A stretch of 64,000 nucleotides of DNA from NCBI RefSeq assembly GCF_018070025.1, contig NZ_JAGPYQ010000001.1, forward strand, positions 7,502,001-7,566,000. The letters run 5' to 3'. Positions 4,865 through 44,969 of this stretch are shown here, piece by piece (position 1 is the stretch's first letter; each line of letters opens with the position of its first letter). Position numbers and translations under genes: made by a program. The stretch is from Streptomyces liliiviolaceus (GTDB lineage: Bacteria; Actinomycetota; Actinomycetes; Streptomycetales; Streptomycetaceae). Below the pieces are notes generated by a model, which did not search any database, was not told where the DNA came from, and saw only the letters and a program-made list of their open reading frames with translations.

Positions 4865-5125
4865 ATGACGGTGGACAGCGCGACCGAGGAGGCCCGGGCG
4901 ATCGCCGTACGGATCGCCACGGTCTTCAAAGAGGTGCTGGGCGCACAGGACGTGCCCGACACGAGCAGCGGATTCCTGGACATCGGCGGCGACTCGCTGA
5001 CGGCCGCGCGGGCGGTGTCCCTCATCAGTTCGCGACTGGGCGTACGGATCACCGTCCGTGACCTGTTCCGGTCCCAGACCCCCGAGTCGCTCGCCCTCGT
5101 GGCGCTGCGGCGCCCGGCCGCCTGA
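4865..5125 (+). CDS. Free-standing peptidyl carrier protein
   Basis: An 86-residue carrier protein, first gene of the NRPS operon. The phosphopantetheine attachment serine sits in [13 protein letters not shown] (about residue 43). Start ATG follows GAAGGGGACGGAAT. It has no attached adenylation or condensation domain, so it must be charged in trans. The stand-alone A protein at 17509-19182 is the obvious partner. NRPS-4 ends in a C domain plus a dead A domain with no carrier, so this protein may complete that module. It could instead be a scaffold for modifying an amino acid before incorporation. Confidence 0.92.
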
Positions 5126-5217
5126 CCCGCTCCGTGGCCGGCCGCTCCGGGCCGGCCCGCGGTGAGGGGCGGCAGTACCGATCGCACGTCCGTAACGACT
5201 TTTCGAGAGGTGAAGGC

Positions 5218-5403
5218 ATGGTGGCGCAGACGTACCGCGTGGTGGTGAACGGCGAGGAGCAGTACTCGGTCTGGCCGACGGGACGGGAGCTGCCCGCGGG
5301 CTGGTTCGATGAGGGCACCTCCGGCTCCAAGGAGGACTGCCTCGCCCATGTCGAGCGGGTGTGGACCGACATGCGGCCGCTCAGCCTCCGCCGGGCGCGG
5401 TGA
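5218..5403 (+). CDS. MbtH-like protein
   Basis: A 61-residue MbtH family protein with the signature [15 protein letters not shown] and the terminal [11 protein letters not shown]. MbtH proteins bind the N-terminal subdomain of A domains and help them fold and work. It lies between the free carrier protein and NRPS-1, preceded by GAGAGGTGAAGGC. It probably serves several A domains of this cluster. A slightly short C-terminus is the only departure from the norm. Confidence 0.95.
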
Positions 5404-5413
5404 GACGACCGTC

Positions 5414-8400
5414 ATGACGACGCGGACCGAAGAAGCAGCCGGAGCGGGAGAGTCGGTCGCGGAGGGCAGGGAACTGACCTCCGCGAAGCGCGAGTTGCTG
5501 GCACAGCGGCTGCGTGGGCGGTCGGACACCGCGAAGGCGCCCCCGGGCGCCGTGAGTTCCGTGCCACGCCGCCCCGGCACCGGGAGCGCCCCCCTGGCGC
5601 CCGTCCAGCACAACCTGTGGGTCGCGGACCGACTGCTGTCGGACAACTCCACGTTCAGCGTCCACCGCGTGCTGCGGCTGACCGGGTCGCTGGACCGCGA
5701 CGCGGTCAGCCGCGCGTTGGACGCCCTGGTGGAACGCCACGAGACCCTGCGCATGACGTTCCGGGACGACAACCCGCCCCGCCAGATCCCGCAGCCGCCC
5801 GGGCCGGCCCCGCTGCGGACCGTCGATCTGACGCATCTGCCGCCGGTCGCGCGGGCGGCCGCGGCGGTGCGGGTCGCCGAGGAGGAGATCGCGCTCCCCT
5901 TCGACCTGGAGCGCGGCCCCGTCTTCCGGGCCGTGCTGGCGGTCTGCGACGACTCCACCCACGTCCTCGTACTGAACCTGCACCACTGTGTCGCCGACGA
6001 GTGGTCGTGCGGTGTGCTGGCCCGTGAGTTCGGCGCCCTCTACTCGGCGTCCACGCGCGGAGCCAGGGGCCCGGACCTGGCGAGGACGCTGCCCGAGCTT
6101 CCCGCCTCGTACACGGACTACTCGGCATGGCAGTCGGAGCGGCTCTCCGGTGACCTGCTGGTGCGGCAACTCGCCCACTGGCGCTCGGCCCTGGACGGAG
6201 TGCCCCCGGTCCTCGAACTGCCCACCGACCACGTCCGTCCGCCCACGCCGTCCTTCTGGGGGCACGGCGCCCGCCGGCTGCTGTCGCCCGAGGTGAGCTC
6301 CGCGCTGCGCGACTTCGCCAGGCGGCACAACGTCACCCTCTTCACGGCCCTGCTGACGGTGTTCGCCGGCTATCTGCACCGCTGGAGCGGCGGACAGGAC
6401 CGGTTCTCCGTGCTGACGCCGGTCTCCGGACGGGTCGTCGCCGACACCGAACCGCTCGTGGGCATGCTGGCGAACACCCTGCCGCTGACGGTGGACGTCA
6501 CCGACGACCCGGGCTTCTCCACGCTGGTGCGCCGTATGAACTCCGTGGTGCTCGGGGCCCTTGAGCACCAGGACGTCACCTTCGAGCAGCTGGTGGCGGA
6601 TTCCGGGCAGCCCCGGGACGCGTCCCGCAATCCCCTGTCCCAGGTCATGTACCAGTGCATCGAGTCACGCGAGCACGTGTGGGAACTGCCCGGCGTCACC
6701 GTCGAGCGCGAGCGGATCGGCCTGGCGTCCGCGAAGGTGGACCTGTCGCTGGTCGCGGCGAACCTGGACGAGGGCGTCCGGCTCGACCTGGTGGGAGAGA
6801 GCACCCTGTTCGAGCCCGCGACGGTGGAGCGGATGCTCGACTCGCTGGTCGAGGTGCTGACCCGCGCGGTCGCCGCTCCCGACACCACCGTCGGCGAGGT
6901 GGAACTGCTGTCCGCGGCCGAACGCGCCCAGGTCGTCGACGACTTCAACCGCACCGGCGCCACACCGCCCGACGGCACCGTCCTCGACCTGTTCGCCGCC
7001 GCCGTCGCCGCCTCGCCCGACGCCACGGCCGTCGCCTCGGACAGCGGCTCCCTCACCTACCGCGAGCTCGACGCGTGGTCGGACCGCCTGGCCGCGCGGC
7101 TGGTCGCGTCCGTACCCGGGCCCGGCGCCCTGGTCGGGGTCCATCTGCCCCGCTCCGAGCAGCTGGTGGCCACGCTGCTCGCGGTGTGGAAGGCCCGCTG
7201 CGCCTTCCTCCCGCTGCCCCTGGACCACCCCGACGAGCGGCTGCGCACCATGCTGGACGACGCGGACGTCGCCCTCGTCGTCGCGGAGCCGGGACGGCAC
7301 GAGCGGCTCGGCGGGGTGCCGGTGTTCCACGCCGACCCCGCGGACCGCACGGCGGACCGCATCGCGTCCGCGGAGCCGGCCCGGCCGGGGCCCGCGCCGC
7401 TCCCCGCCGATCTCGCCTATCTGCTGTACACCTCGGGCTCCACCGGCCGCCCCAAGGCGGTGGCGATCGAGCACTCCGGGCTCGTCAACTTCCTGAGCGG
7501 CACCGCGCAGCGGCTGGGCGCCGGCGCGGACGACGTGTGGCTGGGCCTGACCGGCATCGGGTTCGACATCGCGCTGGTCGAGATGTTCCTGCCGCTGACC
7601 ACCGGCGGCCGGGTGGTGCTGGCCCCGGAGGGGGCCGCGCACGACGGCGGCACCGCCGTCGAGACCGCCCGCCGGCATCAGGTCACGCATGTGCAGGCGA
7701 CCCCGTCGGGCTGGCGGGTCCTGCTCGCCGCGGCGGACCGCCTGCCGCACCTGGCGGTCGCCATGACCGGCGGCGAGACGCTGCCACCCACGCTGGCGGC
7801 GGAGCTGCGCCGCAGGGCCGGACGCCTGTTCAACTGCTACGGGCCCACCGAGTCCACGGTGTGGGCCACGTACGACGACGTCACCGATCCGGCCGCGGAG
7901 ATCACCGTCGGCACGGCCGTCGACAACGTCACCGTGTACGTGCTCGACGCGGCCATGCGCCCCGTGCCGGTCGGTGTGCCGGGCGAGCTGTACATCGGAG
8001 GGCCCGGGGTCGGACGCGGTTACCACGCGCGCCCGGGGCTGACCGCGGGCGTCTTCGTGCCCGACCCGTTCGGACCGCCCGGGGCACGCCTGTACCGCTC
8101 GGGCGATGTGGGCGCCCGGCGCCCGGACGGCCGTATCCGCTTCTTCGGCCGCGACGACCACCAGGTCAAGATCCGCGGCCACCGCATCGAACTCGGCGAA
8201 ATCGAGGCCCGGTTGACCGCACACGCGGACGTGGCGCACGCCGTGGTGGTGGCGGAGCAGCTGCCCGCCGGGGCCCGGCTCGTCGGCTATGTCGTCGGGG
8301 GCGCCTCGGAGGACGAGCTGCGCCGCCACCTCACGGCCGCCCTGCCCGGCGCCATGGTGCCCGCCGTCCTCGTCTTCCTGGAGAGCCTGCCGCTGTCGCC

Positions 8401-11400
8401 GAACGGCAAGGTCGACCGCCGCCGGCTGCCGGCCCCGCGCAGCGCGGCGCCCGCGGAGCGCACACCGCCCGCCGACGGGGTCCAGCGGGTGCTGGCCGAC
8501 ATCTGGAGCCGGCTGCTCGACATCCCGCCGGTCGCCGCGCAGGACAACTTCTTCACCCTCGGCGGCGACTCGGTCACCGCCGTGTTCCTCGTGTCGAAGG
8601 CCAGGGAGGCGGGCTACGCCTTCACCGCACGCCAGGTGTTCGCCCACCAGACCCTCGCCGAACTCGCCGCCGTGGCGGTCCCGTTGGACACCGGTACGGC
8701 GGCCGGCGGGGTGGACCCCGACGACTTCCCGCTGGCCGGCCTCGACCGGGACGGCCTGGAGCGCGTCCTGTCGGGGCTTCCCGCGGGGGACGTGCAGGAC
8801 ATCTACCCGTGCACCCCGCTCCAGGCGGGCATGCTGTTCCACAGCCTGCACGACCCGGGCGGCCACTCCTACTTCAACCAGTACCGCTGGGAGATCGAGG
8901 GCGACCTCGACGAGGACGCGCTCGTCGCCGCCTGGCAGCACGTGCTGGACCGGCACGACGCGCTGCGCTGCTCCTTCCGCTGGGAGGGCCTGGACCGCCC
9001 GCTCCAGGTCGTCCACCGCACCGTACGGGCCGACTTCACCGTCCTCGACTGGACGGACACCCCCGCGGACGCCCTCCCCGAGCGCTTGGAGGAACTGCTC
9101 GCCGGGGAACGCGGGCGCGGCTTCGACCTGTTCCGCGTCCCGCCCCAGCGGTTCCACCTCGTCCGCACCGGCCCCACCAGCCATCACCTGGTGTGGCACA
9201 ACCACCACATCCTGTCCGACGGCTGGAGCGTCGGCCCGCTCCTGAACGAGGTCTTCGCCACCGTCACGGCGCTGCGCCGGCTGGGGCACCCGCCGCGCGA
9301 CCTGCCCGTACCGGTCCCCCACCGCGCCTACGTGGAGTGGCTGGAGGGACAGGACCCGCTCGCCGTCGAACGGTGCTGGCGCGACTCCCTCGCCGGTTTC
9401 GGCGAGCCCACCCCGATCCCGGTGGTGCGGCAGGTCCCGAAGGACGAGCCCGCCGGGGCGGCCCGTACCGTCGAACTCGCGCTGGACGCGGAGCTGACCG
9501 AGGGTCTGACCCGGTTCGCCCGCGAGCGGGGCTGCACCCTCGGCACCGTGTTCCAGGGCGCCTGGGCGCTGCTGCTGGGCCGCTGGAGCCGGCGCCGTGA
9601 CGTGCTGTTCGGGCTGACCGTCTCCGGGCGTTCCGTCGACCTGCCGCGCGTCGAGCAGGTCGTGGGACTGCTGTCCAACACCCTGCCGGTGCGCGTGCGC
9701 TGGGCGGACGACGACCGGCTCGACGACTGGCTGGGCCGCCTGGCCGGACAGCTCGGCGGGCTGCGCGACGTCGAGCACTCCGCGCTGGTCGACATCCACG
9801 ACTGGTCCGAGGTGCCGGGCGACCGGCGGCTGTTCGACAGCATCCTGGTCATGCAGAACCTGGCGGTCGCCGAGCGCGCCGACCTGGGCGGTCTGCGCCT
9901 GCGCATGGGTCCCGTGCACCAGAGCAGCGGCTATCCGCTGATGCTGAACGTCCGCGCCGCACCGGCCGGGACCGTCCTCCAGCTCGTCCACGACGACGTC
10001 CGGGTCGACCCCGCTGACGCCGAGCGCCTGCTGGCGTCGTTCGGCCGGCTGCTCGGCGCGTTCGTGGAGCGGCCCGACGCCCGGGTCGGCGAGCTGCCGA
10101 TCCTGCCGGACGCCGACCGCGAGAGGGTCGTCCACCACTGGAACGACACCGCGCACGCCTTCCCCGCCGCCACGACCGTGCCCGCGATGATCAGGGAGCA
10201 GTCGACCCGTACCCCGGACGCGACGGCGGTGGTGTGCGGCGCCGAAAACGCCGGGGACGCCGAGGAATGGTCGTACTCCCGGCTCGACGACGAGGTCGCG
10301 GGGCTGGCGCGGCGGCTGCGGGCCGCCGGGGTGCGGCGCGGGGACCGGGTGGGGCTGCGGCTCGACCGCTCGGCGACCATGACGGCCGCGGTGCTCGCGG
10401 TCTGGCGGGTCGGCGGCGCCTACGTCCCGCTGGACCCGGAGTACCCCGACGCGCGGACCGCCTTCGTGCTGTCCGACTCCGGGGTACGTGTCCTGCTCGC
10501 GGGCGGCGAACCGGTCCCGGCGTCCGTGCCGCCCGAGGTGAGCGTGGTCCGCGCCGACGACAGCGGCAGTGACCCCGGCGTGGAACCGCCGGAGCCCGAA
10601 ACCCCCGAAGAGCGGGGCAGCGGCTTCGAGCCCTCGCGGCCGGACGACGTGGCCTACGTGCTGTACACCTCCGGCTCCACCGGCCGGCCCAAGGGCGTGG
10701 AGGTCACCCACGCGGCGCTCGCCCATCTGACCGCCGCCATGACACATGTCCTGCGGCCGTCCGGCCGGCAGGTGTGGCTGGGGCTCACCGCCCTGTCCTT
10801 CGACATCTCGACCGTGGAGATGTTCGTGCCGCTGACCACGGGCGGCCGGATCGTGGTCGTCCCCGAGGAGGGACGCTGGGACGCCGCCGCGCAACGCGAT
10901 CTGATCCGCCGTCACGGGGTCACCCATGTCCAGGCCACCCCGTCCGGGTGGCGGCTGCTGCTGGCCGCCGGCTTCGGGGCGGCGGACGGTGTCGCCGTCG
11001 GCCTGGTCGGCGGCGAGGCGCTGCCCGAGCCCCTGGCCGCCGAGCTGGGTACGGGCCTGCCCCGGCTGATCAACGTCTACGGCCCGACCGAGGCCACCGT
11101 CTGGTCCACCTGGGACGAGGTCGACCCCGGCGCGCAGGAGGTAACCATCGGCCTCCCACTGCCCAACACCACCGCCCACGTCCTCGACGAGGCGATGCGG
11201 CCCGTGCCCCTCGGGGTGCCGGGCGAGCTGTACCTCGGCGGCGCGGGGGTGGCCCGCGGCTATCTGGGGCGGCCCGCGCTGACCGCGCGGCAGTTCGTGC
11301 CGGACCCGTTCGGCGGGCCCGGGGCCCGGCTGTACCGCACCGGCGACCTCGCCGCGCGGCGCGCCGACGGCCGGATCCGCTTCCTCGGCCGGGACGACCA

Positions 11401-14400
11401 CCAGGTCAAGATCAGCGGTCACCGGATCGAACTCGGCGAGATCGAGGAGGCGTTGACCGGCCACCCGGACGTGCGGCTCGCCGCCGTCACCGTCCACCGG
11501 GACGCGGCGGGCGAGGAGTTCCTGGTCGGCCATCTCGTCGGCGACTCGCCCGACCCCGCCGACGTACGGACGTATCTGCGCGGCAAGGTGCCCCGCGCGA
11601 TGGTGCCGGCGCGGCTCGTCGTCCTGGAGTCGATGCCGCTCAGCCCGGCCGGCAAGGTCGACCGGGCGGCGCTGCCCGCCCCCGAGGCGCCCACGGCGGG
11701 CCCCGCCGGGCGGACCGCGCCCCGCAGCGCCGCCGAGCGGAGCCTCGCGGACATCTGGGCCCGTGTCCTGCACACCGACGAGATCGGGACGGACGACGAC
11801 TTCTTCGCCCTGGGCGGCAACTCCCTCAAGGCGGTCATGGTCTCCGCGCTCGCACGGGAGGCCGGGCTCTCCGTCTCCACCCGGCAGATCTTCGCCCACC
11901 CCACGGTGGCGGAGCTGGCGGGCCTCGACTCCGCGGCGCCCGCGGCGGAACCCGTGGTGAGCGCGCCGTTCCGGTTCACCGGACTGGACAGCGAGACCCT
12001 GGAAGGGTTCCTGGACACCGTGGGCAGGGAGGGCACCGAGGACGTCCTGCCGCTGTCGCCCCTGCAGACCGGGCTGCTCCTCGACACGCTGGCGGAGACC
12101 GGCGACTACGTCCGCGCCTTCGCCGTCGACATCGAGGGCGACTTCGACCGGGCGGCCTTCGAGGACGCCTGGACCCACCTGGTCGACCGCCACGCGATCC
12201 TGCGGTCCACCTTCCACTGGGCGCAGCTGCCCCGCCCGGTCCAGGCCGTCCGGCGGGCCGCGCCGCCCCGCTTCCGGTACACCGACCTCTCCGCGCTTCC
12301 GGCGGACCGGCGTACGGAACGGCTCGCGGAGCTCACCGACGCGGAGGGCCGGACCGTCTTCGATCTCGGCGCCGCCCCGCCGGCCCGCTTCCTGCTGATC
12401 CGCGTGGCCGAGGACCGGCACCGCTTCGTGTGGACCACCCACCACGTCGTCTTCGACGGCTGGAGCCTGCACGCCCTGTTCACCGAGGCGTTCGACATCT
12501 ACCGCAGCCGGCGCGCGAGCGGCCGTCCGCCCGTCCTCGCCGACCCGCCCCCGTACCGGGAGTACCTGCGCCGGCTCGCCGAGCACGACACCCCGGAGGA
12601 CGCCGAGCGCGAGGACGCCCACTGGCGTTCCCAGCTGGCGGGCTTCACCCGTCCCACTCGCCTGCCCGGCAGCCGTCCCACCGGCGCCGCCGAAGGTGTG
12701 TGGAGCGCCCGGCAGACCCTTCCGGGCGACCTGTGCGACGCCCTGGAACGAGCCGGCCGCCGCCATCGCGTCACCGTCGGCACCCTCGTCCACACCGCCT
12801 GGACCCTGCTGCTGAGCCGGACGAGCGGGGAGCGGGACGTCGTCTTCGGCACGACCGTCTCGGGCCGCTTCGGCGACGTACCGGGGATCGAGCGCATGGT
12901 CGGCCTGCTGATGAACACCCTGCCCCTGCGCGTCGAGGTGGCCCCGGACGCCTCCCTCACCGGGCTGCTGCGCGAGGTGCAGCGCCGGATCACCGAGGTG
13001 GCCGGGCGGGCGCACGTCGCACTGCCCGCCGTCCAGCGGGCGAGCGACGTGGCGCCCGGACGGCGGCTCTTCGACAGCCTGGTCGTCTTCACCGACACCG
13101 GCTTCGGCGGACTGCCGCCGGGGGTCGTCCCGCTCGCCGAGAGCGAGGTCCGCGACACCGGCTATCCCCTGGTCCTGGAGGTCATGCGGGCCGGCGGGCT
13201 CACCCTCGAACTGGGCTGCGAGAAGTCGCACTACGACCAGGTCACCGCGGACCGGCTGCTTGCCCAGTTCGTCCAGCTGCTGACCGGCCTGGCCGAGGAC
13301 CGTCCCGCCGTCGCCGACGTGCCCATGCTGTCGGCCGGGGAACGCGCCCAGGTCCTCCACACCTGGAACGACACGACGACCGCCTTCCCGGCCGACCGCA
13401 CCCTGCACTCCCTCGTCGGGGAACAGGCCGCGGCCACACCGGACGCCGTGGCCGTCCGGCTCGGCTCCGACACCTGGACGTACGCCGAACTCGACGCCCG
13501 GGCCGACCGGGTGGCCCACCGCCTGCGCCTGGAGGGGGTGCGGCCGGGCGACCTGGTGGCGCTGTGCACCGAGCGTTCCCTCGACCACGTCGTGGGGCTG
13601 CTCGGCATCCTGAAGTCCGGTGCGGCCTTCGTCCCCGTCGACCCCGAACACCCCGCCCGCCGCCAGGCGTACATCCTCACCGACGCCGGAGCCCGGGTCC
13701 TGCTCACCCAGACCCACCTGCGCGCGGCCCTTCCCGAAGGCGTCGCCGCGAGCGTCCTCGCGCTGGACGACCCGGCGGCCTGGACCGCCGAACCCGGCCC
13801 GGGCCCCCGCCCGGACGCGCTGCCCGCCGACCTGTGCTCGCTGTACTACACCTCCGGGTCGACCGGCTCGCCCAAGGCGGTGGCCTCGCACCACGCGGGC
13901 TGGGTCAACCGCATGGCGTGGATGCAGCGCCGGCACGGGCTGCGCGCCGGCGAGGGGGTCCTGCACAAGACGACGCTCACGTTCGACGACGCGGCGGTGG
14001 AGATCCTGTGGCCGCTGATCACCGGCGGCCAGGTCGTCCTGCTGCCGCCGGGCGCGCACCGCGACGCCCACGCGATCGCCGAGGCCGTCGCCCGGCACGA
14101 CGTGGTGCATGTGCAGTTCGTCCCCAGTGTGCTGGAGGTGTTCCTCGACGTCCTCACCCCGGAGCGGGCCCTGGCCATGCCCCGGCTGCGGTCCGTCCTC
14201 ACCAGCGGCGAGGCGCTGCGGCCCGCGCTGCTGCGCCGGTTCCGCGAGGTGTTCGGGGACCGGGTGAGCCTCGACAACACATGGGGCGCCACCGAGGTGT
14301 CCATCGACTCCACCTGCCGGGTGTGCACCGCCGAGGACGCCGTCGGCGACACGGGCGCGGTCGCCCTCGGCCTGCCCATCGACAACAACACCGTCCACGT

Positions 14401-17400
14401 GCTCGACGGGGCGATGGCGCCGGTGCCGACCGGGGTCACAGGGGAGCTCTTCATCGGCGGCCCCACGCTGGCCCGCGGCTACCACGGGCGGCCCGGGCTG
14501 ACCGCCGAGCGGTTCGTGCCGGACCCCTTCGGAGCGCCCGGCTCCCGGCTCTACCGCACCGGCGACCTGGGGCGCAGGCGTGCCGACGGCGTCCTGGAGT
14601 TCGCCGGGCGCGCCGACCACCAGGTCAAGCTCGGCGGTGTCCGCGTCGAACTCGGCGAGATCGAGGACGCGTTGCGCAGGGCACCCGGCATCCGGGACGC
14701 GGTCGCCGACGTACGGACCGTGGGCGCCGCACGGAGTCTCGTCGGCTACACCGTCGGGGACGACGACCCGGACCGTACGCTGGCCGCGCTGCGCGCCGAG
14801 CTGCCCGACGTCATGGTGCCGAGGTTCCTCGTCGCCCTGGACGCCGTACCGCTCAACGCCAACGGCAAGGTGGACCGGGCCGCTCTGCCCGATCCGGACC
14901 CCGCGGCCCGGGAGGCGACGGCACAGTCGCACACGGCTCCCGGTACGCCGACCGAGGAGGCCCTCGCCCGGATCTGGTGCCGGGTCCTCAAGGTGGAGCG
15001 GATCGGGGTGCACGACAACTTCCGTGCGCTGGGCGGGGATTCCATCCTGCTGATCCACACCGTCGCCAGGGCGCGTGAGGCGGGCCTGTCCCTCACCCCG
15101 AAGATGGTCTTCGAACACCCCACGATCGCCGCTCTCGCCGCGGCCTGCGACGAGGCGGCGGCCCTGGGCCGCGACACCTCCGTGCACGCCGAGCAGGGCC
15201 CCGTCACCGGGGAGGTGCCCCTCGGGCCGATCCAGCGGCAGTACGCCGAACTCGGGCCGCGGGACCGCTTCAACCAGAGCCGGCTCCTCGACGTCGACCC
15301 CGGAGTCGATCCCGGGACGCTGCGGGCGGCGCTGCGCACGCTGACCGTCCACCACGACGCGCTGCGGCTGCGCTGGCACCGCCGGGGGGCCGACTGGCAC
15401 CAGTACCTGGCCCCGCCGAACGACCACGGCGACCACGGCGACCCGCTGACGGTCGTGGACTCCCCGCAGGACACCGACGCCGCGGTGGAGGCCGCGCACG
15501 CCGGGCTCGACCTGGCCCACGGCCCCCTGCTGCGCGCCGTCCTGATCAGGCCGTCCGGACAGCTCCTGCTGGTCGTCCACCACGTGGCCGTCGACACCGT
15601 GTCCTGGGACATCCTGGTCGAGGACCTGAACACCCTGTGCGGCGGAGGCGGACTGCCCGCCAAGACCACCTCTGTGCGGCACTGGGCCGAACGGCTCCAC
15701 GAGCACGCGCGCGGCGCCGGGTTCGAGGCCGAGGCCGCCTACTGGGCGCTGCCGCGACCGCACGTCGAGCCGCTGCCGACGGACCACCCGGCAGGCGACG
15801 ACACCGAGGGCCGCGTCCGCGTCACGAAGGTGGTCCTGCCGGCCGCGCCCACGGCGGCCCTGCTGCGCCAGACCGCCGCGCTGCGCGGGGCCGAACCGGA
15901 ACACCTCATGCTGGCCGCCCTGGCCCGCACGCTCACCGAGGCCACCGGCGGTGACACCTGTGTGATCGACGTGGAACGGCACGGCCGTGAGCCGCTGTTC
16001 GACGACGTCGACCTCACGCGCACCGTCGGCTGGTTCACCAGTGTGCAGCCCCTGACGATCACCCGTCCCGGGTCCGACGGCACGGACGCCTGGATCGACG
16101 TGGTCGCCGAACACACCCGTACCCCCGCGGGACGCGGCATCGGCCACGGCCTCGCCCGGTATCTGCGCGGGAGCGGCGTCGGAGCGCCCCCGGCCCAGGT
16201 CTCGTTCAACTACCACGGCCGCCGGGACACCGCCGGGACACCGGACGCCCTGCTGCGCCCGCTGTCCCGGACGTACGGCGATCCCGTCGACCCCGGGCAG
16301 CGGCGCTCCCACCTCGTGGAGATCGAGGCGGCGGTCCTCGGCGGCGAGTTGCACATCGAGTGGCGGTACGCGGCCGACCGCTTCGACGCCGACACCGTAC
16401 GCGGCCTGGCCGAACGGCAGTTGCGGCATCTCACCGACCTGGGCGACACCCCGCCCGGGGCGGTACGGCGGCCGGCCGAGCCGTTCGTGCGGCGGCTGTT
16501 CGCCGGGACACCGGCCCCGAGGCTGCCGATGCTGCGGCACCGGGTCCCGGGAGTGGGCATCGCGGTGATCGCCGACGGCGACCTGCGCGGGGCCTGGGGC
16601 TTCGGCACCCTCGGCGCCGAGGACCCCGTCGAGGTCGACGAGCGGACCGTCTTCCAGGTCGGCTCGATCAGCAAGCACGTCACCGCGCTGGGCGTCATGC
16701 GCCTGGTCCAGGACGGGCGTCTCGACCTCGACACCGACGTCAACCGCCTGCTCACCGGCTGGCGGCTGCCCGGCGACGGCGTCACCCTGCGCCACCTGCT
16801 CACCCACACCGCGGGGCTCGGCGCGCAGTCCTACGACGGCTACCGCGCGGACCGGCCGCTGCCCACGCTGGCCCAGGTCCTCGACGGCCGGCCCCCGGCG
16901 CTCACCCCGCCGGTACGGCCGGTGGGCCCGCCCGGCTCGCCGTACCTGTACGCGAGCAGCAACTACACCGTGGTCCAGCAGGTGCTCCAGGACGTCACGG
17001 GGCAGGACTTCGCACCCCTGATGCGCTCGCTCGTCCTGGACCCGCTCGGGATGCGCGACAGCGACTTCGCGCCGCGCGTGCCCCGGTTGCCCGGCACCAC
17101 GGTCGCCCGCAACCACGACGCGGCGGGCGTCCCCCACCCGGAGGGCTGGCACCTGTACCCGGAGTCGGCCGCGGGCGGGCTGTGGTCCACGCCCCGGGAC
17201 CTGGCCCGGGTCGCCGTCGAGATCCAGCGGGCGGTCACCGGCGGCCCCTCGGTCCTGCTGGGCGCCGAGGCGGCGGACGAGATGCTCCGCACCCATCCCG
17301 GCACCCCGGGAGGACTGGGCACGGCGGGCAAACCGTACGGCGGCCGGCGGTGGTTCGGACACACCGGTGGTGTCCCCGGCTTCCGCTCCCTGACCTGGGC

Positions 17401-17515
17401 CGACCCGGACCGCGGTCTGGGGCTCGTCGTCACGGCCAACTCGGACGCCGGTGAGGACTTCCTGCGCGAATTGCTGCACGACCTCGGGGTCGGACTGGAG
17501 GACGCACGATGGTGA
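5414..17515 (+). CDS. NRPS-1: C-A-T-C-A-T-C-A-T-E with fused PBP/beta-lactamase-type domain
   Basis: A 4033-residue three-module synthetase. Approximate layout: C1 60-500 (HHCVADEWS), A1 525-1010, PCP1 (Ser1053), C2 1125-1560 (HHILSDGWS), A2 1583-2090, PCP2 (Ser2137), C3 2210-2640 (HHVVFDGWS), A3 2663-3160, PCP3 (Ser3210), epimerization domain 3265-3680 (HHVAVDTVSW, VGWFT, FNYHGR). The last 340 residues are a serine-hydrolase fold of the class C beta-lactamase/penicillin-binding group with SISK (3751-3754), Tyr3846 and HTGG (His3983). No ordinary GXSXG thioesterase is present. Hand-aligned pocket residues: A1 D-I-V-Q-M-G-C-V-W and A2 D-I-V-Q-L-G-V-V-W, both glycine-like; A3 D-D-V-Q-L-S-T-I-D, which has extra acids and suggests a basic side chain. 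Starting with C, it needs an upstream donor; the PBP-type domain suggests it ends the line. Confidence 0.95.
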   Translation: MTTRTEEAAGAGESVAEGRELTSAKRELLAQRLRGRSDTAKAPPGAVSSVPRRPGTGSAPLAPVQHNLWVADRLLSDNSTFSVHRVLRLTGSLDRDAVSRALDALVERHETLRMTFRDDNPPRQIPQPPGPAPLRTVDLTHLPPVARAAAAVRVAEEEIALPFDLERGPVFRAVLAVCDDSTHVLVLNLHHCVADEWSCGVLAREFGALYSASTRGARGPDLARTLPELPASYTDYSAWQSERLSGDLLVRQLAHWRSALDGVPPVLELPTDHVRPPTPSFWGHGARRLLSPEVSSALRDFARRHNVTLFTALLTVFAGYLHRWSGGQDRFSVLTPVSGRVVADTEPLVGMLANTLPLTVDVTDDPGFSTLVRRMNSVVLGALEHQDVTFEQLVADSGQPRDASRNPLSQVMYQCIESREHVWELPGVTVERERIGLASAKVDLSLVAANLDEGVRLDLVGESTLFEPATVERMLDSLVEVLTRAVAAPDTTVGEVELLSAAERAQVVDDFNRTGATPPDGTVLDLFAAAVAASPDATAVASDSGSLTYRELDAWSDRLAARLVASVPGPGALVGVHLPRSEQLVATLLAVWKARCAFLPLPLDHPDERLRTMLDDADVALVVAEPGRHERLGGVPVFHADPADRTADRIASAEPARPGPAPLPADLAYLLYTSGSTGRPKAVAIEHSGLVNFLSGTAQRLGAGADDVWLGLTGIGFDIALVEMFLPLTTGGRVVLAPEGAAHDGGTAVETARRHQVTHVQATPSGWRVLLAAADRLPHLAVAMTGGETLPPTLAAELRRRAGRLFNCYGPTESTVWATYDDVTDPAAEITVGTAVDNVTVYVLDAAMRPVPVGVPGELYIGGPGVGRGYHARPGLTAGVFVPDPFGPPGARLYRSGDVGARRPDGRIRFFGRDDHQVKIRGHRIELGEIEARLTAHADVAHAVVVAEQLPAGARLVGYVVGGASEDELRRHLTAALPGAMVPAVLVFLESLPLSPNGKVDRRRLPAPRSAAPAERTPPADGVQRVLADIWSRLLDIPPVAAQDNFFTLGGDSVTAVFLVSKAREAGYAFTARQVFAHQTLAELAAVAVPLDTGTAAGGVDPDDFPLAGLDRDGLERVLSGLPAGDVQDIYPCTPLQAGMLFHSLHDPGGHSYFNQYRWEIEGDLDEDALVAAWQHVLDRHDALRCSFRWEGLDRPLQVVHRTVRADFTVLDWTDTPADALPERLEELLAGERGRGFDLFRVPPQRFHLVRTGPTSHHLVWHNHHILSDGWSVGPLLNEVFATVTALRRLGHPPRDLPVPVPHRAYVEWLEGQDPLAVERCWRDSLAGFGEPTPIPVVRQVPKDEPAGAARTVELALDAELTEGLTRFARERGCTLGTVFQGAWALLLGRWSRRRDVLFGLTVSGRSVDLPRVEQVVGLLSNTLPVRVRWADDDRLDDWLGRLAGQLGGLRDVEHSALVDIHDWSEVPGDRRLFDSILVMQNLAVAERADLGGLRLRMGPVHQSSGYPLMLNVRAAPAGTVLQLVHDDVRVDPADAERLLASFGRLLGAFVERPDARVGELPILPDADRERVVHHWNDTAHAFPAATTVPAMIREQSTRTPDATAVVCGAENAGDAEEWSYSRLDDEVAGLARRLRAAGVRRGDRVGLRLDRSATMTAAVLAVWRVGGAYVPLDPEYPDARTAFVLSDSGVRVLLAGGEPVPASVPPEVSVVRADDSGSDPGVEPPEPETPEERGSGFEPSRPDDVAYVLYTSGSTGRPKGVEVTHAALAHLTAAMTHVLRPSGRQVWLGLTALSFDISTVEMFVPLTTGGRIVVVPEEGRWDAAAQRDLIRRHGVTHVQATPSGWRLLLAAGFGAADGVAVGLVGGEALPEPLAAELGTGLPRLINVYGPTEATVWSTWDEVDPGAQEVTIGLPLPNTTAHVLDEAMRPVPLGVPGELYLGGAGVARGYLGRPALTARQFVPDPFGGPGARLYRTGDLAARRADGRIRFLGRDDHQVKISGHRIELGEIEEALTGHPDVRLAAVTVHRDAAGEEFLVGHLVGDSPDPADVRTYLRGKVPRAMVPARLVVLESMPLSPAGKVDRAALPAPEAPTAGPAGRTAPRSAAERSLADIWARVLHTDEIGTDDDFFALGGNSLKAVMVSALAREAGLSVSTRQIFAHPTVAELAGLDSAAPAAEPVVSAPFRFTGLDSETLEGFLDTVGREGTEDVLPLSPLQTGLLLDTLAETGDYVRAFAVDIEGDFDRAAFEDAWTHLVDRHAILRSTFHWAQLPRPVQAVRRAAPPRFRYTDLSALPADRRTERLAELTDAEGRTVFDLGAAPPARFLLIRVAEDRHRFVWTTHHVVFDGWSLHALFTEAFDIYRSRRASGRPPVLADPPPYREYLRRLAEHDTPEDAEREDAHWRSQLAGFTRPTRLPGSRPTGAAEGVWSARQTLPGDLCDALERAGRRHRVTVGTLVHTAWTLLLSRTSGERDVVFGTTVSGRFGDVPGIERMVGLLMNTLPLRVEVAPDASLTGLLREVQRRITEVAGRAHVALPAVQRASDVAPGRRLFDSLVVFTDTGFGGLPPGVVPLAESEVRDTGYPLVLEVMRAGGLTLELGCEKSHYDQVTADRLLAQFVQLLTGLAEDRPAVADVPMLSAGERAQVLHTWNDTTTAFPADRTLHSLVGEQAAATPDAVAVRLGSDTWTYAELDARADRVAHRLRLEGVRPGDLVALCTERSLDHVVGLLGILKSGAAFVPVDPEHPARRQAYILTDAGARVLLTQTHLRAALPEGVAASVLALDDPAAWTAEPGPGPRPDALPADLCSLYYTSGSTGSPKAVASHHAGWVNRMAWMQRRHGLRAGEGVLHKTTLTFDDAAVEILWPLITGGQVVLLPPGAHRDAHAIAEAVARHDVVHVQFVPSVLEVFLDVLTPERALAMPRLRSVLTSGEALRPALLRRFREVFGDRVSLDNTWGATEVSIDSTCRVCTAEDAVGDTGAVALGLPIDNNTVHVLDGAMAPVPTGVTGELFIGGPTLARGYHGRPGLTAERFVPDPFGAPGSRLYRTGDLGRRRADGVLEFAGRADHQVKLGGVRVELGEIEDALRRAPGIRDAVADVRTVGAARSLVGYTVGDDDPDRTLAALRAELPDVMVPRFLVALDAVPLNANGKVDRAALPDPDPAAREATAQSHTAPGTPTEEALARIWCRVLKVERIGVHDNFRALGGDSILLIHTVARAREAGLSLTPKMVFEHPTIAALAAACDEAAALGRDTSVHAEQGPVTGEVPLGPIQRQYAELGPRDRFNQSRLLDVDPGVDPGTLRAALRTLTVHHDALRLRWHRRGADWHQYLAPPNDHGDHGDPLTVVDSPQDTDAAVEAAHAGLDLAHGPLLRAVLIRPSGQLLLVVHHVAVDTVSWDILVEDLNTLCGGGGLPAKTTSVRHWAERLHEHARGAGFEAEAAYWALPRPHVEPLPTDHPAGDDTEGRVRVTKVVLPAAPTAALLRQTAALRGAEPEHLMLAALARTLTEATGGDTCVIDVERHGREPLFDDVDLTRTVGWFTSVQPLTITRPGSDGTDAWIDVVAEHTRTPAGRGIGHGLARYLRGSGVGAPPAQVSFNYHGRRDTAGTPDALLRPLSRTYGDPVDPGQRRSHLVEIEAAVLGGELHIEWRYAADRFDADTVRGLAERQLRHLTDLGDTPPGAVRRPAEPFVRRLFAGTPAPRLPMLRHRVPGVGIAVIADGDLRGAWGFGTLGAEDPVEVDERTVFQVGSISKHVTALGVMRLVQDGRLDLDTDVNRLLTGWRLPGDGVTLRHLLTHTAGLGAQSYDGYRADRPLPTLAQVLDGRPPALTPPVRPVGPPGSPYLYASSNYTVVQQVLQDVTGQDFAPLMRSLVLDPLGMRDSDFAPRVPRLPGTTVARNHDAAGVPHPEGWHLYPESAAGGLWSTPRDLARVAVEIQRAVTGGPSVLLGAEAADEMLRTHPGTPGGLGTAGKPYGGRRWFGHTGGVPGFRSLTWADPDRGLGLVVTANSDAGEDFLRELLHDLGVGLEDARW

Positions 17516-19182
17516 CGATCGATTCCGCCTTCCGTACGTGGGCGGTACGCACCCCGGACGCGGTGGCGCTGCGCGCGCCCGGCAGCCGGCTGACCTACGG
17601 CGAGCTGGACCGCGCGGCGACCCGTCTCGCCCGCCGGCTGCTCGGGCTCGGCGTCCGGCCCCAGGAACTGGTCGGGGTGGCGGCCGTCCCGTGCCCCGAG
17701 TTCGTGGTGGCGGCGCTGGCGGTGCTCCGCGCGGGCTGTGCCTACGTACCGCTGGATCTGGCGTATCCGCAGGAGCGGCTGGCGCACATGCGGCGGGACA
17801 GCGGCATCCGTGTCGTGGTCCGCAGTTCGGGCGAGGAGCTGCCGGCCGCTCTCGCGGACTGCGTGGTCCTCGATCCGGCCGCGGACGACGACGATGGCGA
17901 TGGCGATGGCGTCCGCACCACCGACAGCACGGCCGACGGCACCGCCGACCCCCTGGACGCGGTGCGGGCCGGGCCCGACGATCTGGCGTACGCGATGTAC
18001 ACCTCGGGATCGACCGGGCGTCCCAAGGCGGTCCTGGTCGAGCAGCGCAATGTCACCGCGTTCGCGCTGCGGCAGGACTTCGCCGCGCTCGGGCCCGGCC
18101 GCACCATGCTGCAGAGCAGTTCCTTCTCGTTCGACGCGTCGGTGCTGGAGATCTGGGGGGTGCTGCTGCGCGGGGCCTGTCTGGCCTTCCCGCCGGACGA
18201 CCTGCTGACCTCCGCCGAGCTGGCCGAGGTCCTGGCGGAGCAGCAGGTGACCGACCTGTGGCTGTCGGCCGGCCTCTTCCACCGGATCGCCGACGACGTG
18301 CCGGAGGCGTTCGCGCCCCTGCGCACCGTCGTCACGGGCGGGGACGTCGTGTCCCCGCCCCGGGTACGGCGTGTGCTGAGCGCCAACCCCGGGCTGACGG
18401 TGGCGCACATCTACGGGCCCACCGAGACCACGGTGGCCGTCTGCCGCCGACTGCTCACCGACCCGGACCAGGTGGAGTTCCCGCTGCCGCTGGGTACCGC
18501 GCTGCCCGGGACGTGCCTGCACGTCATGGACGAACGCGGCCGTCCCCTCCCGGCGGGCGAGACCGGCGAACTGTGGATCTCGGGGGAGACCGTCTCCCGC
18601 GGCTACCACGACCGGCCCGAGCTCACCGCGGAACGCTATGTCACCGACCCCGCGACCGGCCGGTACTCGTACCGCAGCGGCGACCTCGCCCGTAAACGCC
18701 CCGACGGCACCGTGGAGTTCGCGGGCCGCGCCGACCAGCAGGTCAAGATCCGCGGTTTCCGGATCGAACCCGGTGAGATCGAGGCCGCGCTCTGCGAGGC
18801 GCCCGGGGTGCGCGCCTGTCTGGTCACCGCGCGCGTCGCGCCCCCCGGCGACAAGCGAGTCGTCGCCTACGTCGTCCCGCGGGCGGCGGGCCCGCTGCCC
18901 GCCGCCGAACTGCACCGCTTCCTCGCCGGGCGGCTGCCCCGCCACATGCTGCCCGCCGAGTACGTGGCGCTCGACGCGCTGCCCCTGGACGCCAACGGAA
19001 AGGAGGACCGGCGCCTCCTGCCCGAGCCGGCCTGGGGGCGCGGCAGCCTCGCCGTGCTCGACACCACCCCCGCCGCTCCCGCCCCCGTGCCCGTCCCCGC
19101 CTCCGCACCCGCCGCTCCCGCCCCCGTGCCCGTCCCCGCCTCCGCACCCGCCGCCCCGGCCGCCCTGCCCGAGAGGATCTGA
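17509..19182 (+). CDS. NRPS-2: stand-alone adenylation protein with Pro/Ala-rich tail
   Basis: A 557-residue single A domain. It has YTSGSTGRPKA (from about residue 164), FSFDASVLEIW, IYGPTETT, YRSGD and GRADQQVKIRGFRIEPGEIE, with the catalytic lysine in DANGKEDRR, so it looks active. It has no carrier domain. Hand-aligned pocket residues are D-A-L-W-V-G-I-V-A, with Asp235 present, suggesting a hydrophobic alpha-amino acid. The tail (residues about 521-551) is a tandem Pro/Ala/Val repeat, probably a flexible linker. Its start overlaps the NRPS-1 stop by 7 nt. It presumably charges the free carrier protein at 4865-5125. Confidence 0.93.
   Translation: MVTIDSAFRTWAVRTPDAVALRAPGSRLTYGELDRAATRLARRLLGLGVRPQELVGVAAVPCPEFVVAALAVLRAGCAYVPLDLAYPQERLAHMRRDSGIRVVVRSSGEELPAALADCVVLDPAADDDDGDGDGVRTTDSTADGTADPLDAVRAGPDDLAYAMYTSGSTGRPKAVLVEQRNVTAFALRQDFAALGPGRTMLQSSSFSFDASVLEIWGVLLRGACLAFPPDDLLTSAELAEVLAEQQVTDLWLSAGLFHRIADDVPEAFAPLRTVVTGGDVVSPPRVRRVLSANPGLTVAHIYGPTETTVAVCRRLLTDPDQVEFPLPLGTALPGTCLHVMDERGRPLPAGETGELWISGETVSRGYHDRPELTAERYVTDPATGRYSYRSGDLARKRPDGTVEFAGRADQQVKIRGFRIEPGEIEAALCEAPGVRACLVTARVAPPGDKRVVAYVVPRAAGPLPAAELHRFLAGRLPRHMLPAEYVALDALPLDANGKEDRRLLPEPAWGRGSLAVLDTTPAAPAPVPVPASAPAAPAPVPVPASAPAAPAALPERI
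19069..19146 (+). repeat. Two perfect 39-nt tandem repeats in the tail of NRPS-2
   Basis: Two identical 39-nt units (19069-19107 and 19108-19146), each coding PAAPAPVPVPASA, followed by a partial third unit. They make an extended, disordered tail on the stand-alone A protein. Such arrays can change copy number without shifting frame. Confidence 0.9.
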
Positions 19183-19188
19183 TCGCCC

Positions 19189-22100
19189 ATGTCTGCCACC
19201 CCCGGCCCCACCGGGGTCCAGGTGCCGCTCAGCCGCGACCAGGAACGAACCTGGTTCGTCGACCAGTTGAGCAGCTGCTCGTCCGACTACCTCATCCCGC
19301 TCCGGCTGCACTTCGCCGGGGCCCTCGACCGCGACGCGCTGCGCCGGGCGCTGGAAGCCCTGGTGGCCCGCCACGAGGTACTGCGCACCGGTGTCGTCGC
19401 GGGGGACGCGAGGCCCGTCGGAGTGGTCCGCCCGGCGGACGCGTTCCGGCTGCGGGAGACGACGGCGCCCGACGCGGGGGCGCTCGACGCGGCCCTCGCG
19501 AAGGAGGCGGCCACCCCGATGGACCTGGCCGCCGAACTGCCCGTGCGCGCCCTGCTGATCCGCCACGGCGAGCGTGAGCACACCCTCGTCCTGACGATCC
19601 ATCACGTCGCCGCCGACGACTGGTCCTGTGCCCTCGTCTACGACGAACTGGCCGCCGACTACGCGGCCTTCACCGCGGGGGACCCGTCCCCGGTCCCGGC
19701 GCCCGCCGAGCCCTACCGCACGGTGGCCGCCCGCCTGGACGCCCTCGCCGACGAGGCGGAGCCGGCCGGGCTGGAGCACTGGCGCACCGCGCTGGCCGAC
19801 CTCACCCCCTTCGAGGTGCCCTGCGACCGGCCCCGCCCCGCCGTCCGGGCCGGGCGGGGAGCGATGCGTACCGCCTTCGTGCTGCCGCCGAAGGTCGCCG
19901 AACCGCTCGTCGCGCTCGGCCGTTCCGTGGGGGCGACCCCCGCGATGCTGCTGACCGCCGCGGTCCAGGGCGTCCTGTACCGCTACACCGGCCGGCAGGA
20001 CGTCACCACCGGCACCACCTACGCGCGCCGCGACGACCCCGCGACCGAACGCCTCCTGGGCGTCCTCATCAACATGCTGCCCCTGCGGGGCCGACCGGCC
20101 CCGGAGCTGACGTTCCGTCAATTCGTCGAGCAGTTCAGGGAGGTGTCGCTCGACGCGTTCGATCACGCCGATGTCCCCTTCGACCGGCTCGTGGGCGAGA
20201 GCGGCGCCGAGCGCGATCCCTCCCGCACCCCACTGTTCCAGATCCTGGTCAACTTCCGCACCGGCCGCCGCCGGGTCCCGGAGCTGCCGGACCTGACCGT
20301 CACCGAACTCCCGATGCCGTACGAGGGTGCCAAGTACGACCTCTGCGTCAGCTTCGAGCAGAGCGCCGCCGGGCTGTGGTGCGGCGTGAACTGGGACACC
20401 GCCCTGTACGACGACGACACGGTGGAACGCCTGGGACAGTGGCTGGAGCGGCTGCTGCGGCACGTCGCGGAGCGGCCCGACACCCTCCTCGACGACATCC
20501 CGCTGCTGTCGGGACCGGAGCAGGACGCCCTGCGCGCCCTGTCCCTGCGCCCGGCCGTCGACACCCCCCACCGCACCCTGCACGAACTGGTGTCCCTCAG
20601 GGCCGCGGCGCAGCCGGAGGCGGTCGCCCTGGTCGACGCCGACGGCACCACGACCAGCTACGCGGCACTGGAGGGGGCCGCCAACGCCGTCGCCCGCCGG
20701 CTGATCGCCCACGGGGTCGGGCCCGACATCCCCGTGGGCCTGCTGATCGACCGTTCCGTCCCGCTGGTCGTCGGCCTCCTCGGCATCCTCAAGGCGGGCG
20801 GCGCCTATCTGCCCATCGAGCCGGCCACGCCCGCCGCCCGGATCGCCACCCTGCTCACCGACGCCGGCGCCCCGGTCTGCCTCACCGCCCCGGAGCACGC
20901 GGGCACCGTCACCGCCGGGGGTGCCGTCCCGCTCACCGTCGACCCGGACGACCGGGCGGCTCCCCCGGCCGTGTCCGTCCACCCCGACCACCTGTGCGCC
21001 GTCTACTACACGTCCGGCTCCACCGGCCGGCCCAAGGGCGTGGCCTGCACGCACCGCGGCTGGGTCAACCGGATGGCGTGGATGCAGCACCGGCACGGTC
21101 TGCGGCCGGGCGAGACGGTCCTGCACAAGACGACCCTGCCGTTCGACGACGCGGCCGTCGAGATCCTCTGGCCGCTGATCACCGGGGGCACGGTGGCGCT
21201 GCTGCCGCCCGGTCTGCACCGCGACCCGCGGGCGCTGGTCGACGCCGCCGTCCGCCACCGCGCCGTCCATGTGCAGTTCGTGCCCAGCGTCCTCGACCTC
21301 TTCCTCGAAGAACTCACCCCCGACGACGTCACCGCGCTGCGCCGGAACCTGCGCAGCGTCCTGTCCAGCGGCGAGGCGCTGCGCCCGGTGCTCGTGGAGC
21401 GCTTCCGTGCCGCGTTCGGCGACGCTGTCAGCCTGGACAACACCTGGGGCGCCACCGAGGTGTCCATCGACTCCACGTTCCACGTCTGCGGCCCCGAGGA
21501 CACCCGCGGCACCGGCGCGGTCAGCCTCGGCCGGCCCATGGACAACAACGAGGTGCTGGTCCTCGACCACCGCCTCTCCCCCCTGCCGCCCGGCGTCCCC
21601 GGCGAGCTGTGCATCGCCGGCATGGGCCTGGCCCGCGGTTATCTGGGCGACCCCGCCAAGACGGCCGGCGCGTTCGTCCCGCACCCCTACCGGCCCGGCG
21701 AGCGCGTGTACCGGACCGGCGACCGCGGCCGGATGCGACCGGACGGCACCTTCGTCTACCTGGAGCGGATGGACCGCCAGGTGAAGGTGCGCGGCGTCCG
21801 GGTGGAGCTGGGGGAGGTCGAGGCCGCGCTGCGCGAACACCGCGCGGTGACGGACGCCGCGGTGGTGACCCGCCGCGTCCCCTCCGGCGATCTGCGGCTG
21901 GCCGCCTACGTCGCCCTCGACGACGCCGGGGCGACCGTCCACGAGCTGCGCGAGCACCTGTCCGCGCGACTGCCCGGGTACGCGGTGCCCTCGATCCTCA
22001 CCGTGCTGGACGCGCTCCCCCGCTCGGCCAGCGGAAAGCTCAGCCCCTCGCTGCTTCCCGAGCCCGACCCGGCCGACCACCAGAGCGCGGACCACGTCGC

Positions 22101-22427
22101 TCCCCGCGACGAGACCGAGCGGATCATCGCCGACATCTGGGCCGACGTGCTCTCCCTGCCCCGCATCGGCGTCCTCGACGACTTCTTCTCCCTCGGCGGC
22201 CACTCCCTGATCGCCACCCGGGCCGTCAACCGCATGCGGCAGGCCTTCGACGCCCGGCTCCCGCTCAGCGTGATCTTCGAGCGGCCGACCGTCGCCGGAA
22301 CGGCGGAGTACATCCACGACCTGATCCTGGCCGAGATCGAGGCGATGTCCGACGACGAGGCACGCCGGCTCCTCACGGAGACCTCCCCGGTCACCACTCC
22401 CGCGGACCACGAACGAGGTGCGACACG

Positions 22428-22431
<4 letters not shown>
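19189..22431 (+). CDS. NRPS-3: single C-A-T module
   Basis: A 1080-residue elongation module. C domain at about 9-440 with HHVAADDWS; A domain at about 460-960 with YTSGSTGRPKG and a conserved NTWGATEVSIDST stretch in place of the usual YGPTE region; PCP with Ser1006 in GGHSL. The end EIEAMSDDEARRLL is a common short C-terminal region that may help docking. Hand-aligned pocket residues are D-D-V-Q-L-S-T-I-D, the same as the third A domain of NRPS-1, so both should load the same amino acid, possibly a diamino acid. The gene starts 7 nt after NRPS-2 and its stop overlaps NRPS-4 by 4 nt. Confidence 0.94.
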
Positions 22432-26888
<4,457 letters not shown>

Positions 26889-26922
26889 CCGCCCCCGACC
26901 CCGACCCTCGATCGAGGTAGCC

Positions 26923-27852
26923 ATGCTGCACGACATGTCCACAGCACCGTCCGGGACGGCGGTCCGCATCCGGGGAACCCACCACAGCGTCGGCCACCAC
27001 GGAGAGATCCTCCAGGGTGTCTTCGAGTCCGACGGACGCCTGCGCCGCGCACTGATCACCCTCCCCTGCCCCCTCTACGAGTCCCACGCCGTCTTCGAAC
27101 CGTCCGACACGAGCACCGGGGTCACCGTCCTCGACCCCTGGCGGACCAAGGCCGCCCGGGCCGCCGAACTCGCCCTGCGCACCCTGGGCGGCGCCCTCAC
27201 CGGCGGCACCCTCGGCCTGACCAGCAACATCCCGCCCGGTCGCGGCTTCGGCTCGTCCACCGCCGACGTCGTGGCGGCCATCGGGGCCGTGTACGACGCC
27301 GCCGGGCGCCGCCCCAGCCCCGCGCAGTACGCCGCCCTGGCCGTCGCGGCCGAGACCGCCTCCGACGCGCTCATGTACGCCCACCGGGCCGTCCTGTTCG
27401 CGCACCGCGAGGGGGAGGTCATCGAGGAACTGGGCGGCCCCCTGATGCCGGTGGCCGTCGTCGGCTTCGGCACCAGCGAGGACAGCGCGGGCACCGACAC
27501 GCTCGCCCTGCCGCCCGCGCGCTACTCGGTCTGGGAGATCGAGGCGTTCCGCCCCCTGCTCGGCGCGGCCCGCCGGGCCGTCCGCACCGGTGACGTCGCC
27601 CTGCTCGGCCGGGTGGCGACCGCCAGTGCGCGGCTCAACCAGCGCCACCTGCCCGTCCCCGGGCTCCCGGACCTGCTGCGGGTCACCGAGGCGGTGGGCG
27701 CGGCCGGGCTCCAGGTCGCGCACAGCGGTGACGTGGCCGGGCTCCTCTTCGACCCCGACCTGCCCGATCTCGCCACCCGCACCGACGACGCCCGCAAGCG
27801 CCTCGCCGACCTGGGCATCGGCGACTCCTGGTACTTCACCACCAAGAACTGA
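26923..27852 (+). CDS. GHMP-family kinase, L-threonine kinase (PduX)-like
   Basis: A 309-residue small-molecule kinase. It has HHGEILQGVF near residue 25, in the place of the GxxGE(L/I)xQG region of PduX-type threonine kinases, and the GHMP ATP loop PPGRGFGSSTADVVA near residue 105. It would phosphorylate the hydroxyl of threonine, or possibly serine or a related amino acid. ATG is preceded by GAGG; a second ATG four codons on is possible. It is the first of five tightly packed genes after the NRPSs. With the following PLP enzyme and the lyase it fits a route O-phosphothreonine, aspartate adduct, 2,3-diaminobutyrate. The substrate is inferred from this context, not shown. Confidence 0.82.
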   Translation: MLHDMSTAPSGTAVRIRGTHHSVGHHGEILQGVFESDGRLRRALITLPCPLYESHAVFEPSDTSTGVTVLDPWRTKAARAAELALRTLGGALTGGTLGLTSNIPPGRGFGSSTADVVAAIGAVYDAAGRRPSPAQYAALAVAAETASDALMYAHRAVLFAHREGEVIEELGGPLMPVAVVGFGTSEDSAGTDTLALPPARYSVWEIEAFRPLLGAARRAVRTGDVALLGRVATASARLNQRHLPVPGLPDLLRVTEAVGAAGLQVAHSGDVAGLLFDPDLPDLATRTDDARKRLADLGIGDSWYFTTKN

Positions 27853-31677: not shown

Positions 31678-31688
31678 GGAGCCCGGCC

Positions 31689-32755
<1,067 letters not shown>

Positions 32756-32759
<4 letters not shown>

Positions 32760-40519: not shown

Positions 40520-40521
40520 CC

Positions 40522-43530: not shown

Positions 43531-43568
43531 GGGGGCGCTCCAGGGTTACGTAAACAGGGACTCTTGGA

Positions 43569-43599
43569 ATTCTATACGATGCTCCACATTTCTATACGG
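43569..43599 (-). promoter_or_regulatory. Direct repeats upstream of arcB, possible ArgR boxes
   Basis: TTCTATACG occurs twice (43570-43578 and 43590-43598), spaced 20 bp, about two helical turns, in an AT-rich island 40-70 nt upstream of arcB. Paired ARG boxes have a similar spacing and are AT-rich, but the match to a published Streptomyces consensus is not certain. Confidence 0.4.
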
Positions 43600-43633
43600 A
43601 CCCCTGCTCCTGCCCGGTTCCCGTCCGGGCCGC

Positions 43634-44860: not shown

Positions 44861-44969
44861 GACTCCATCCTGACCACCGCGGGGCCGCTTGACCCACCGG
44901 TCGGCACTTTCTTCGCCCAAGCGTTCCCCCGGACACCCCCGCACCCCTCCCCCCTCCCCCCGTCACCTT

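Follow-up and report, generated by a model that had tools for sequence, protein, structure and literature searches.

How does a nonribosomal peptide synthetase (NRPS) let go of its product when its last carrier domain is followed by an E domain and then by a serine hydrolase of the beta-lactamase fold, with no ordinary thioesterase at its end? This question is raised by NRPS-1 of Streptomyces liliiviolaceus, which is encoded in the 64,000-nucleotide stretch of contig NZ_JAGPYQ010000001.1 analysed here (hereafter the window; all coordinates refer to it). The open reading frame spans 5309–17515 on the plus strand (4,068 aa), and the likely start codon at 5414 gives a protein of 4,033 aa, the numbering in which the tyrosine discussed below is Tyr3846. 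Pfam recognized four Condensation-type, three AMP-binding, and three PP-binding stretches together with one PF00144 stretch (residues 3734–4050; 193.4 bits, cut-off 27), which corresponds to the order C-A-T-C-A-T-C-A-T-E-Bla. The last T domain (14924–15163, plus strand) carries the motif LGGDS. The E domain behind it (15179–16453, plus strand) has the motifs HHxxxDxxSW, read as HHVAVDTVSW, VERHGR, and TVGWFT, all of them intact. A putative release domain of 344 aa follows (16481–17512, plus strand), a CubicO/S12-type serine hydrolase according to PF00144, the AF2 model, and structural matches, with no lipocalin behind it. On the same strand, its SxxK motif is Ser-Ile-Ser-Lys (SISK, 16664–16675), Tyr-Ala-Ser within YASSNY stands where Tyr-x-Asn is expected (16949–16957), and the third motif is His-Thr-Gly-Gly (HTGG, 17360–17371); the catalytic-type residues are thus Ser 16664, Lys 16673, Tyr 16949, and His 17360. 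The domain order was identical in 13/13 close homologues (77–95% identity, counted over the searched region), with the Bla domain at the C terminus in all of them, indicating that the architecture did not arise by chance. The Pfam, motif, and homologue data confirmed the first-pass annotation of a T-E terminus followed by a serine hydrolase with SISK, Tyr3846, and HTGG.

NRPS-1 belongs to a cluster at 4865–34054, as the same twelve genes were found in the same succession in all three orthologous loci that were fetched (stretches beginning less than about 1.1 kb ahead of the PCP gene and running about 9–11 kb past the MFS gene). All twelve genes lie on the plus strand. They comprise a stand-alone PCP of 86 aa (4865–5125; PF00550, 51.4 bits), an MbtH-like protein (5134–5403; PF03621), NRPS-1, a stand-alone adenylation protein with the code DALWVGIVA (17509–19182), NRPS-2 with the order C-A-T and the code DDVQLSTID (19189–22431), and NRPS-3 with the order A-T-C plus a degenerate A domain, probably the initiating protein (22428–26888). 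The degenerate adenylation domain of NRPS-3 lies behind its C domain, at about 25800–26888. These are followed by a GHMP kinase, proposed to be a threonine kinase (26740–27852, start position approximate; PF00288; 77–80% identity in the three loci), an SbnA-like PLP beta-replacement enzyme (27864–28952; TIGR03945, 220.4 bits, under the cut-off of 349.95), an ATP-grasp ligase (28949–30187; PF13535), an argininosuccinate-lyase-like enzyme (30184–31677; PF00206; argH, 276.8 bits, just below the cut-off of 279.5), a GntG-type PLP aldolase (31674–32759; NF041359, 424.5 bits, above the cut-off of 230), and an MFS exporter (32756–34054; PF05977/PF07690). No Pfam thioesterase match was present in the twelve genes, in agreement with the earlier statement that a normal thioesterase is absent.

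Consecutive sulfotransferase, glycosyltransferase, APS kinase, and CysD/CysN-like genes at 36432–41757 look like a separate sulfation cassette and had no match in the three orthologous loci. This sulfotransferase and these PAPS genes suggested that the product might be sulfated or a monobactam, an idea that was rejected because the match in the three loci stops at the MFS gene. Elsewhere in the window, an ornithine carbamoyltransferase gene adjoins an arginine deiminase gene (42523–44944, minus strand), Pnkp-like genes (PNKP_ligase, kinase, phosphoesterase) and a Hen1-like gene form a bacterial RNA repair cassette (47325–51544, minus strand), and two large open frames of 1388 and 743 aa show coding-like GC3 (55869–63019, plus strand).

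The building blocks were approached through the adenylation codes. The last-module code of NRPS-1 was DDVQLSTID in 14/14 orthologues, identical to that of NRPS-2 in the window, and the two adenylation domains are 56% identical, compared with 29–50% for the other pairs in the window. From these codes, both domains may load 2,3-diaminobutyrate. The kinase, SbnA-like, and argininosuccinate-lyase-like families adjoin one another and were all present and matched in 3/3 loci, with the SbnA-like gene scoring below the SbnA cut-off. This trio would fit a route from threonine to 2,3-diaminobutyrate, presumably equivalent to the DabA/B/C pathway of the friulimicin type, from which the cluster differs in having an additional ATP-grasp ligase and GntG aldolase and no conventional thioesterase. 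The cluster likely carries a 2,3-diaminobutyrate pathway.

A link with 2,3-diamino acids was also found across the genus. There were 31 matching loci in 27 of 392 Streptomyces genomes (E ≤ 1e-50; at most five candidates scored per genome), which are related to one another and for some of which the fusion was confirmed. An SbnA-like (2,3-diamino-acid) synthase lay within 45 kb of 24 of them when all 123 SbnA-like matches were counted, against a chance expectation of 4.3% derived from match density, and an SbnB-like match lay within the same distance of 18. At two loci, G142 and G150, the SbnA-like match nearby had no SbnB-like companion. Five of the seven SbnA-negative loci were on contigs without any SbnA-like match; four of those contigs were no longer than 50 kb, and the fifth locus was 4 kb from a contig end. 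For comparison, an SbnA-like gene lay within 45 kb of one of 19 listed PF00975 thioesterase matches (open frames above 1,100 aa, 17 of them with C or A domains). The single positive one was an NRPS, giving 1/17 for thioesterase-terminated NRPSs among the matches listed. An SbnA-like match lay within 45 kb of 0/18 SurE-type loci, a control spanning 16 of 73 genomes, in which some loci need not serve an NRPS. As the 31 loci are akin to one another, the SbnA link counts few independent events. Of the fused loci outside Streptomyces, about 16 in number, 12 were chosen and 11 genomes searched; in four, an SbnA-like match was found within 45 kb on what its length indicates to be the same contig, the rest being negative or unplaceable.

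What kind of enzyme is the terminal domain? It passes the Pfam gathering score of the CubicO/PF00144 superfamily, and its AF2 model (pLDDT 92.1) shows a catalytic domain of the beta-lactamase fold in which SxxK, Tyr, and His are present. The first-pass annotation had named clustering with true beta-lactamases, together with hydrolysis of beta-lactams but not of peptidyl thioesters, as the result that would overturn its reading; checked with curated models, the domain scored far under the class C cut-off (NF033085, the general class C model, 53.3 vs 415 bits; best family model NF033569, 62.5 vs 850), and class C identity was rejected. A PHROGs search matched two families, one of them a tail protein with lysin activity. 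The best two PDB sequence matches were a P. abyssi PBP homologue (2qmi) and the IS11 esterase (7spn), CubicO/S12 proteins that share the fold and the SxxK, Tyr, and His residues with the window domain but are longer chains (447 and 456 aa) outside any NRPS. Among the top solved folds, SurE was the joint best match, and many others were hydrolases (IS11 esterase, EstB, R61 DD-peptidase, D-amino acid amidase, ClbP), and the fold matches do not tell cyclase, esterase, and peptidase apart. This list of hydrolases and the absence of a lipocalin are what one would expect of a D-specific peptidyl thioesterase whose product leaves as a linear chain ending in a D residue. We regard such hydrolytic release as possible but on the whole unlikely, as SurE and BifB-SurE, its nearest functional counterparts from NRPS clusters, are cyclases or have been assigned that role (PMC11735501, PMC13285481).

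The first-pass annotation had linked the domain to the SurE group of PBP-type thioesterases. These are separate proteins of two domains, with Asn in the catalytic tetrad, that connect an N-terminal L residue to a C-terminal D residue (PMC11735501), and they require Gly or a D residue at the C terminus (PMC7459860). SurE and Ulm16 (surugamide, ulleungmycin) resemble the window domain in the beta-lactamase fold and the Ser-Lys-Tyr-His set. They use a D- or Gly-terminated peptide where an ordinary thioesterase is missing (PMC11735501, PMC7459860), and the window domain, with an E domain of intact motifs immediately before it, may do likewise. They differ in being stand-alone, in having a C-terminal lipocalin and Y-x-N, and in belonging to another clade. 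In the window, 0 aa follow the domain; the tail does not exceed 37 aa in 49/49 fused rows, nor 55 aa in any of the 45 fused loci from a genome-contig scan. In 30/30 stand-alone SurE-like rows, it measures 110–127 aa, the length of a lipocalin. The Y-x-N position reads Y-(A/S)-S in 14/14 window orthologues and Y-x-N in the same 30/30 rows. With the lipocalin lid and the Asn both absent, the SurE cyclisation geometry cannot be assumed for the window domain.

A 95-row tree was built from rows picked among 140 distinct domain sequences plus five typed PDB segments. SurE, Ulm16, and 18 SurE-like rows formed one clade (SH-aLRT 100) without the window domain. The latter fell in a 52-row group (support 83) made up of 43 NRPS-fused rows, eight genus hits whose fusion was confirmed for some only, and the 332-aa fragment P0052. 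The neighbours of this group were stand-alone CubicO-type proteins, and the 63-row union of both had support 99. Beyond its orthologues, the nearest rows to the window domain were likewise other NRPS-fused and stand-alone CubicO-type domains, with up to 48% identity; SurE is 30.5% identical across 302 aligned positions. When SurE was forced together with the 52 rows, the union survived the AU test at a borderline level (p-AU 0.0572); in a 65-row set without the longest branches, assembled after the 95-row result was seen, the corresponding union was strongly rejected (p-AU 0.0039). In the 65-row tree, two changes are required to account for the 22 fused rows, which leaves room for either one recruitment or two, and a single clade of fused domains is not firm. 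On these alignments, the separation of the window domain from SurE is likely, though not beyond doubt. A fused SurE-family cyclase that has lost its lipocalin would fit the residual identity, the joint best fold match, and the borderline AU value; given the clade, the 65-row rejection, and the nearest rows, we consider it improbable. The earlier interpretation thus stands as regards a cis beta-lactamase-fold domain with intact motifs after an E domain and no normal thioesterase, whereas SurE kinship found no support.

Genuine cis fusions of SurE do occur. The report on biffamycin A (2026) describes BifB as C-A-PCP-E-C-A-PCP-SurE with a C-terminal Gly, unlike NRPS-1, terms its cis SurE domain a unique observation, and reports that deletion of this domain abolishes biffamycin A (PMC13285481). 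The cis configuration that the first-pass annotation regarded as a new cyclase arrangement is thus already in print. Three candidate cis SurE fusions came up in our sequences. Two of them, L076 and L077, were rejected as long open frames without C, A, T, or E domains (L076 also by Pfam). The third, L075, encodes C-A-T-E-C-A-T and then the domain in a 3,098-aa frame; from this architecture, we infer a biffamycin-type cluster, BifB itself being outside the rows of the tree. The L075 domain lies inside the SurE clade and retains about 112 aa behind it, which also argues against counting the tail-less window domain as a SurE fusion. The genome that contains the window also encodes, at another site (L078, G000:C1:5249167-5250078), a SurE-like protein that stands alone and has a tail of lipocalin length.

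The domain type found in the window is more common than the first-pass annotation supposed. One search, in which the best 1,591 candidates by shared words were scored, yielded at least 48 homologues as long as an NRPS, of which 23 end in E-Bla and 25 in T-Bla, so cis fusions of this kind are not rare. In the genome-contig scan, 45 of the best 80 of 340 relatives had NRPS domains upstream, all 45 in Actinomycetota, and some of the other 35 were truncated by contig ends. A tree of 92 domains (a 93rd, not NRPS-fused, was dropped) fell into two branches, Tyr-intact (28 rows) and Tyr-lost (64 rows), with support 99 each. The window domain is in the Tyr-intact branch, 17 of whose 28 rows are its own orthologue group, and the SbnA link spans both branches. 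Termination by an E domain was seen in 25/28 Tyr-intact and 8/64 Tyr-lost rows, the E state of L110 and L112 being taken from the genome-contig locus analysis, unlike that of the remaining rows. Two of the three Tyr-intact rows without E have the last-module code DILQLGVIW, which we take to be glycine-like; the third, L153, is Tyr-intact, yet has neither an E domain nor a Gly-like code (DLPKVGEVG). L106 and L112 are Tyr-lost with both E and a Gly-like code, and a rule coupling Tyr to E explains neither. On the tree, Tyr is altered a single time, and the coupling is therefore not independent evidence. In Tyr-lost rows (e.g., L089, L126, P0018, P0022, P0047), SxSK is retained, and the Tyr site is occupied by Lys, Leu, Val, Glu, Gln, or another residue. 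Clusters of two Tyr-lost relatives (L079–L082) contain SbnB/OCD-like and OTC-like genes and an MFS exporter, one also a TauD dioxygenase, and possibly make carbamoylated diaminopropionate peptides.

An altered catalytic residue in so many NRPS-fused copies would suit a domain outside the release step, be it a hydrolase for maturation or proofreading or a passenger without activity, the peptide being released by another enzyme. At least 15 of the 31 related genus loci also had, by eye, a PF00975 thioesterase within about 11 kb, the window's locus not being among them. For the window this explanation seems improbable, because Ser, Lys, Tyr, and His are retained in 14/14 orthologues and the conserved cluster is free of Pfam thioesterases.

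A role in chain release, in cis behind the E domain, is very probable; the observed basis is the architecture, the conserved Ser, Lys, Tyr, and His, the E motifs, the lack of a Pfam thioesterase in the cluster, and the position outside the SurE clade. The last T domain of NRPS-1, presumably terminal in the assembly line, would bear the full peptide, and the E domain would turn its C-terminal residue into the D form. The Ser of SISK would accept the peptide as an acyl-enzyme, with Lys and Tyr acting as bases and His-Thr-Gly-Gly as the third motif, roles assigned by analogy with characterised relatives. A peptide amine may then resolve the ester to a macrolactam, either head-to-tail or through the beta-amine of the putative 2,3-diaminobutyrate. 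The main alternative fate of the acyl-enzyme would be hydrolysis, yielding a linear peptide whose last residue is D. We put the probability that the domain is the cis chain-release domain of the terminal module, passing a D-terminated peptide through a Ser acyl-enzyme to a macrolactam, at roughly 0.55. Our best reading is D-selective release of a diaminobutyrate peptide, for which cyclisation is likelier than hydrolysis; cyclisation is favored by analogy with SurE-type systems. The domain would work like SurE but probably represents a separate recruitment of a CubicO-type hydrolase.

What is new would thus be a branch of NRPS-fused CubicO-type release domains, apparently undescribed, and not the cis arrangement as such. 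In the accessible portions of the open-licence PMC literature, no paper was found to describe an NRPS with a CubicO release domain outside the SurE group, and PMC12662965 makes no mention of a lactamase. A bolder version, speculative and quite unlikely in our estimate, is that Actinomycetota NRPSs recruited a CubicO-type hydrolase independently of SurE for 2,3-diamino-acid peptides, with the ring shut by the beta-amine to give a side-chain-to-tail macrolactam or, at the extreme, a four-membered beta-lactam on the terminal diaminobutyrate. It stays viable because of the SbnA-like synthases near most genus loci and the DDVQLSTID code shared with NRPS-2. Were the beta-lactam variant true, a beta-lactamase fold would make a beta-lactam.

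The Tyr-lost branch raises a clear mechanistic question, namely what substitutes for the base. If release by the window domain holds, the family would add a further type of built-in NRPS release domain, free of lipocalin and tied to diamino-acid peptides, and would offer a compact fused and possibly D-selective cyclase for peptide synthesis. The domain would also be a marker for finding uncharacterised diaminopropionate and diaminobutyrate peptides across many actinomycete genomes.
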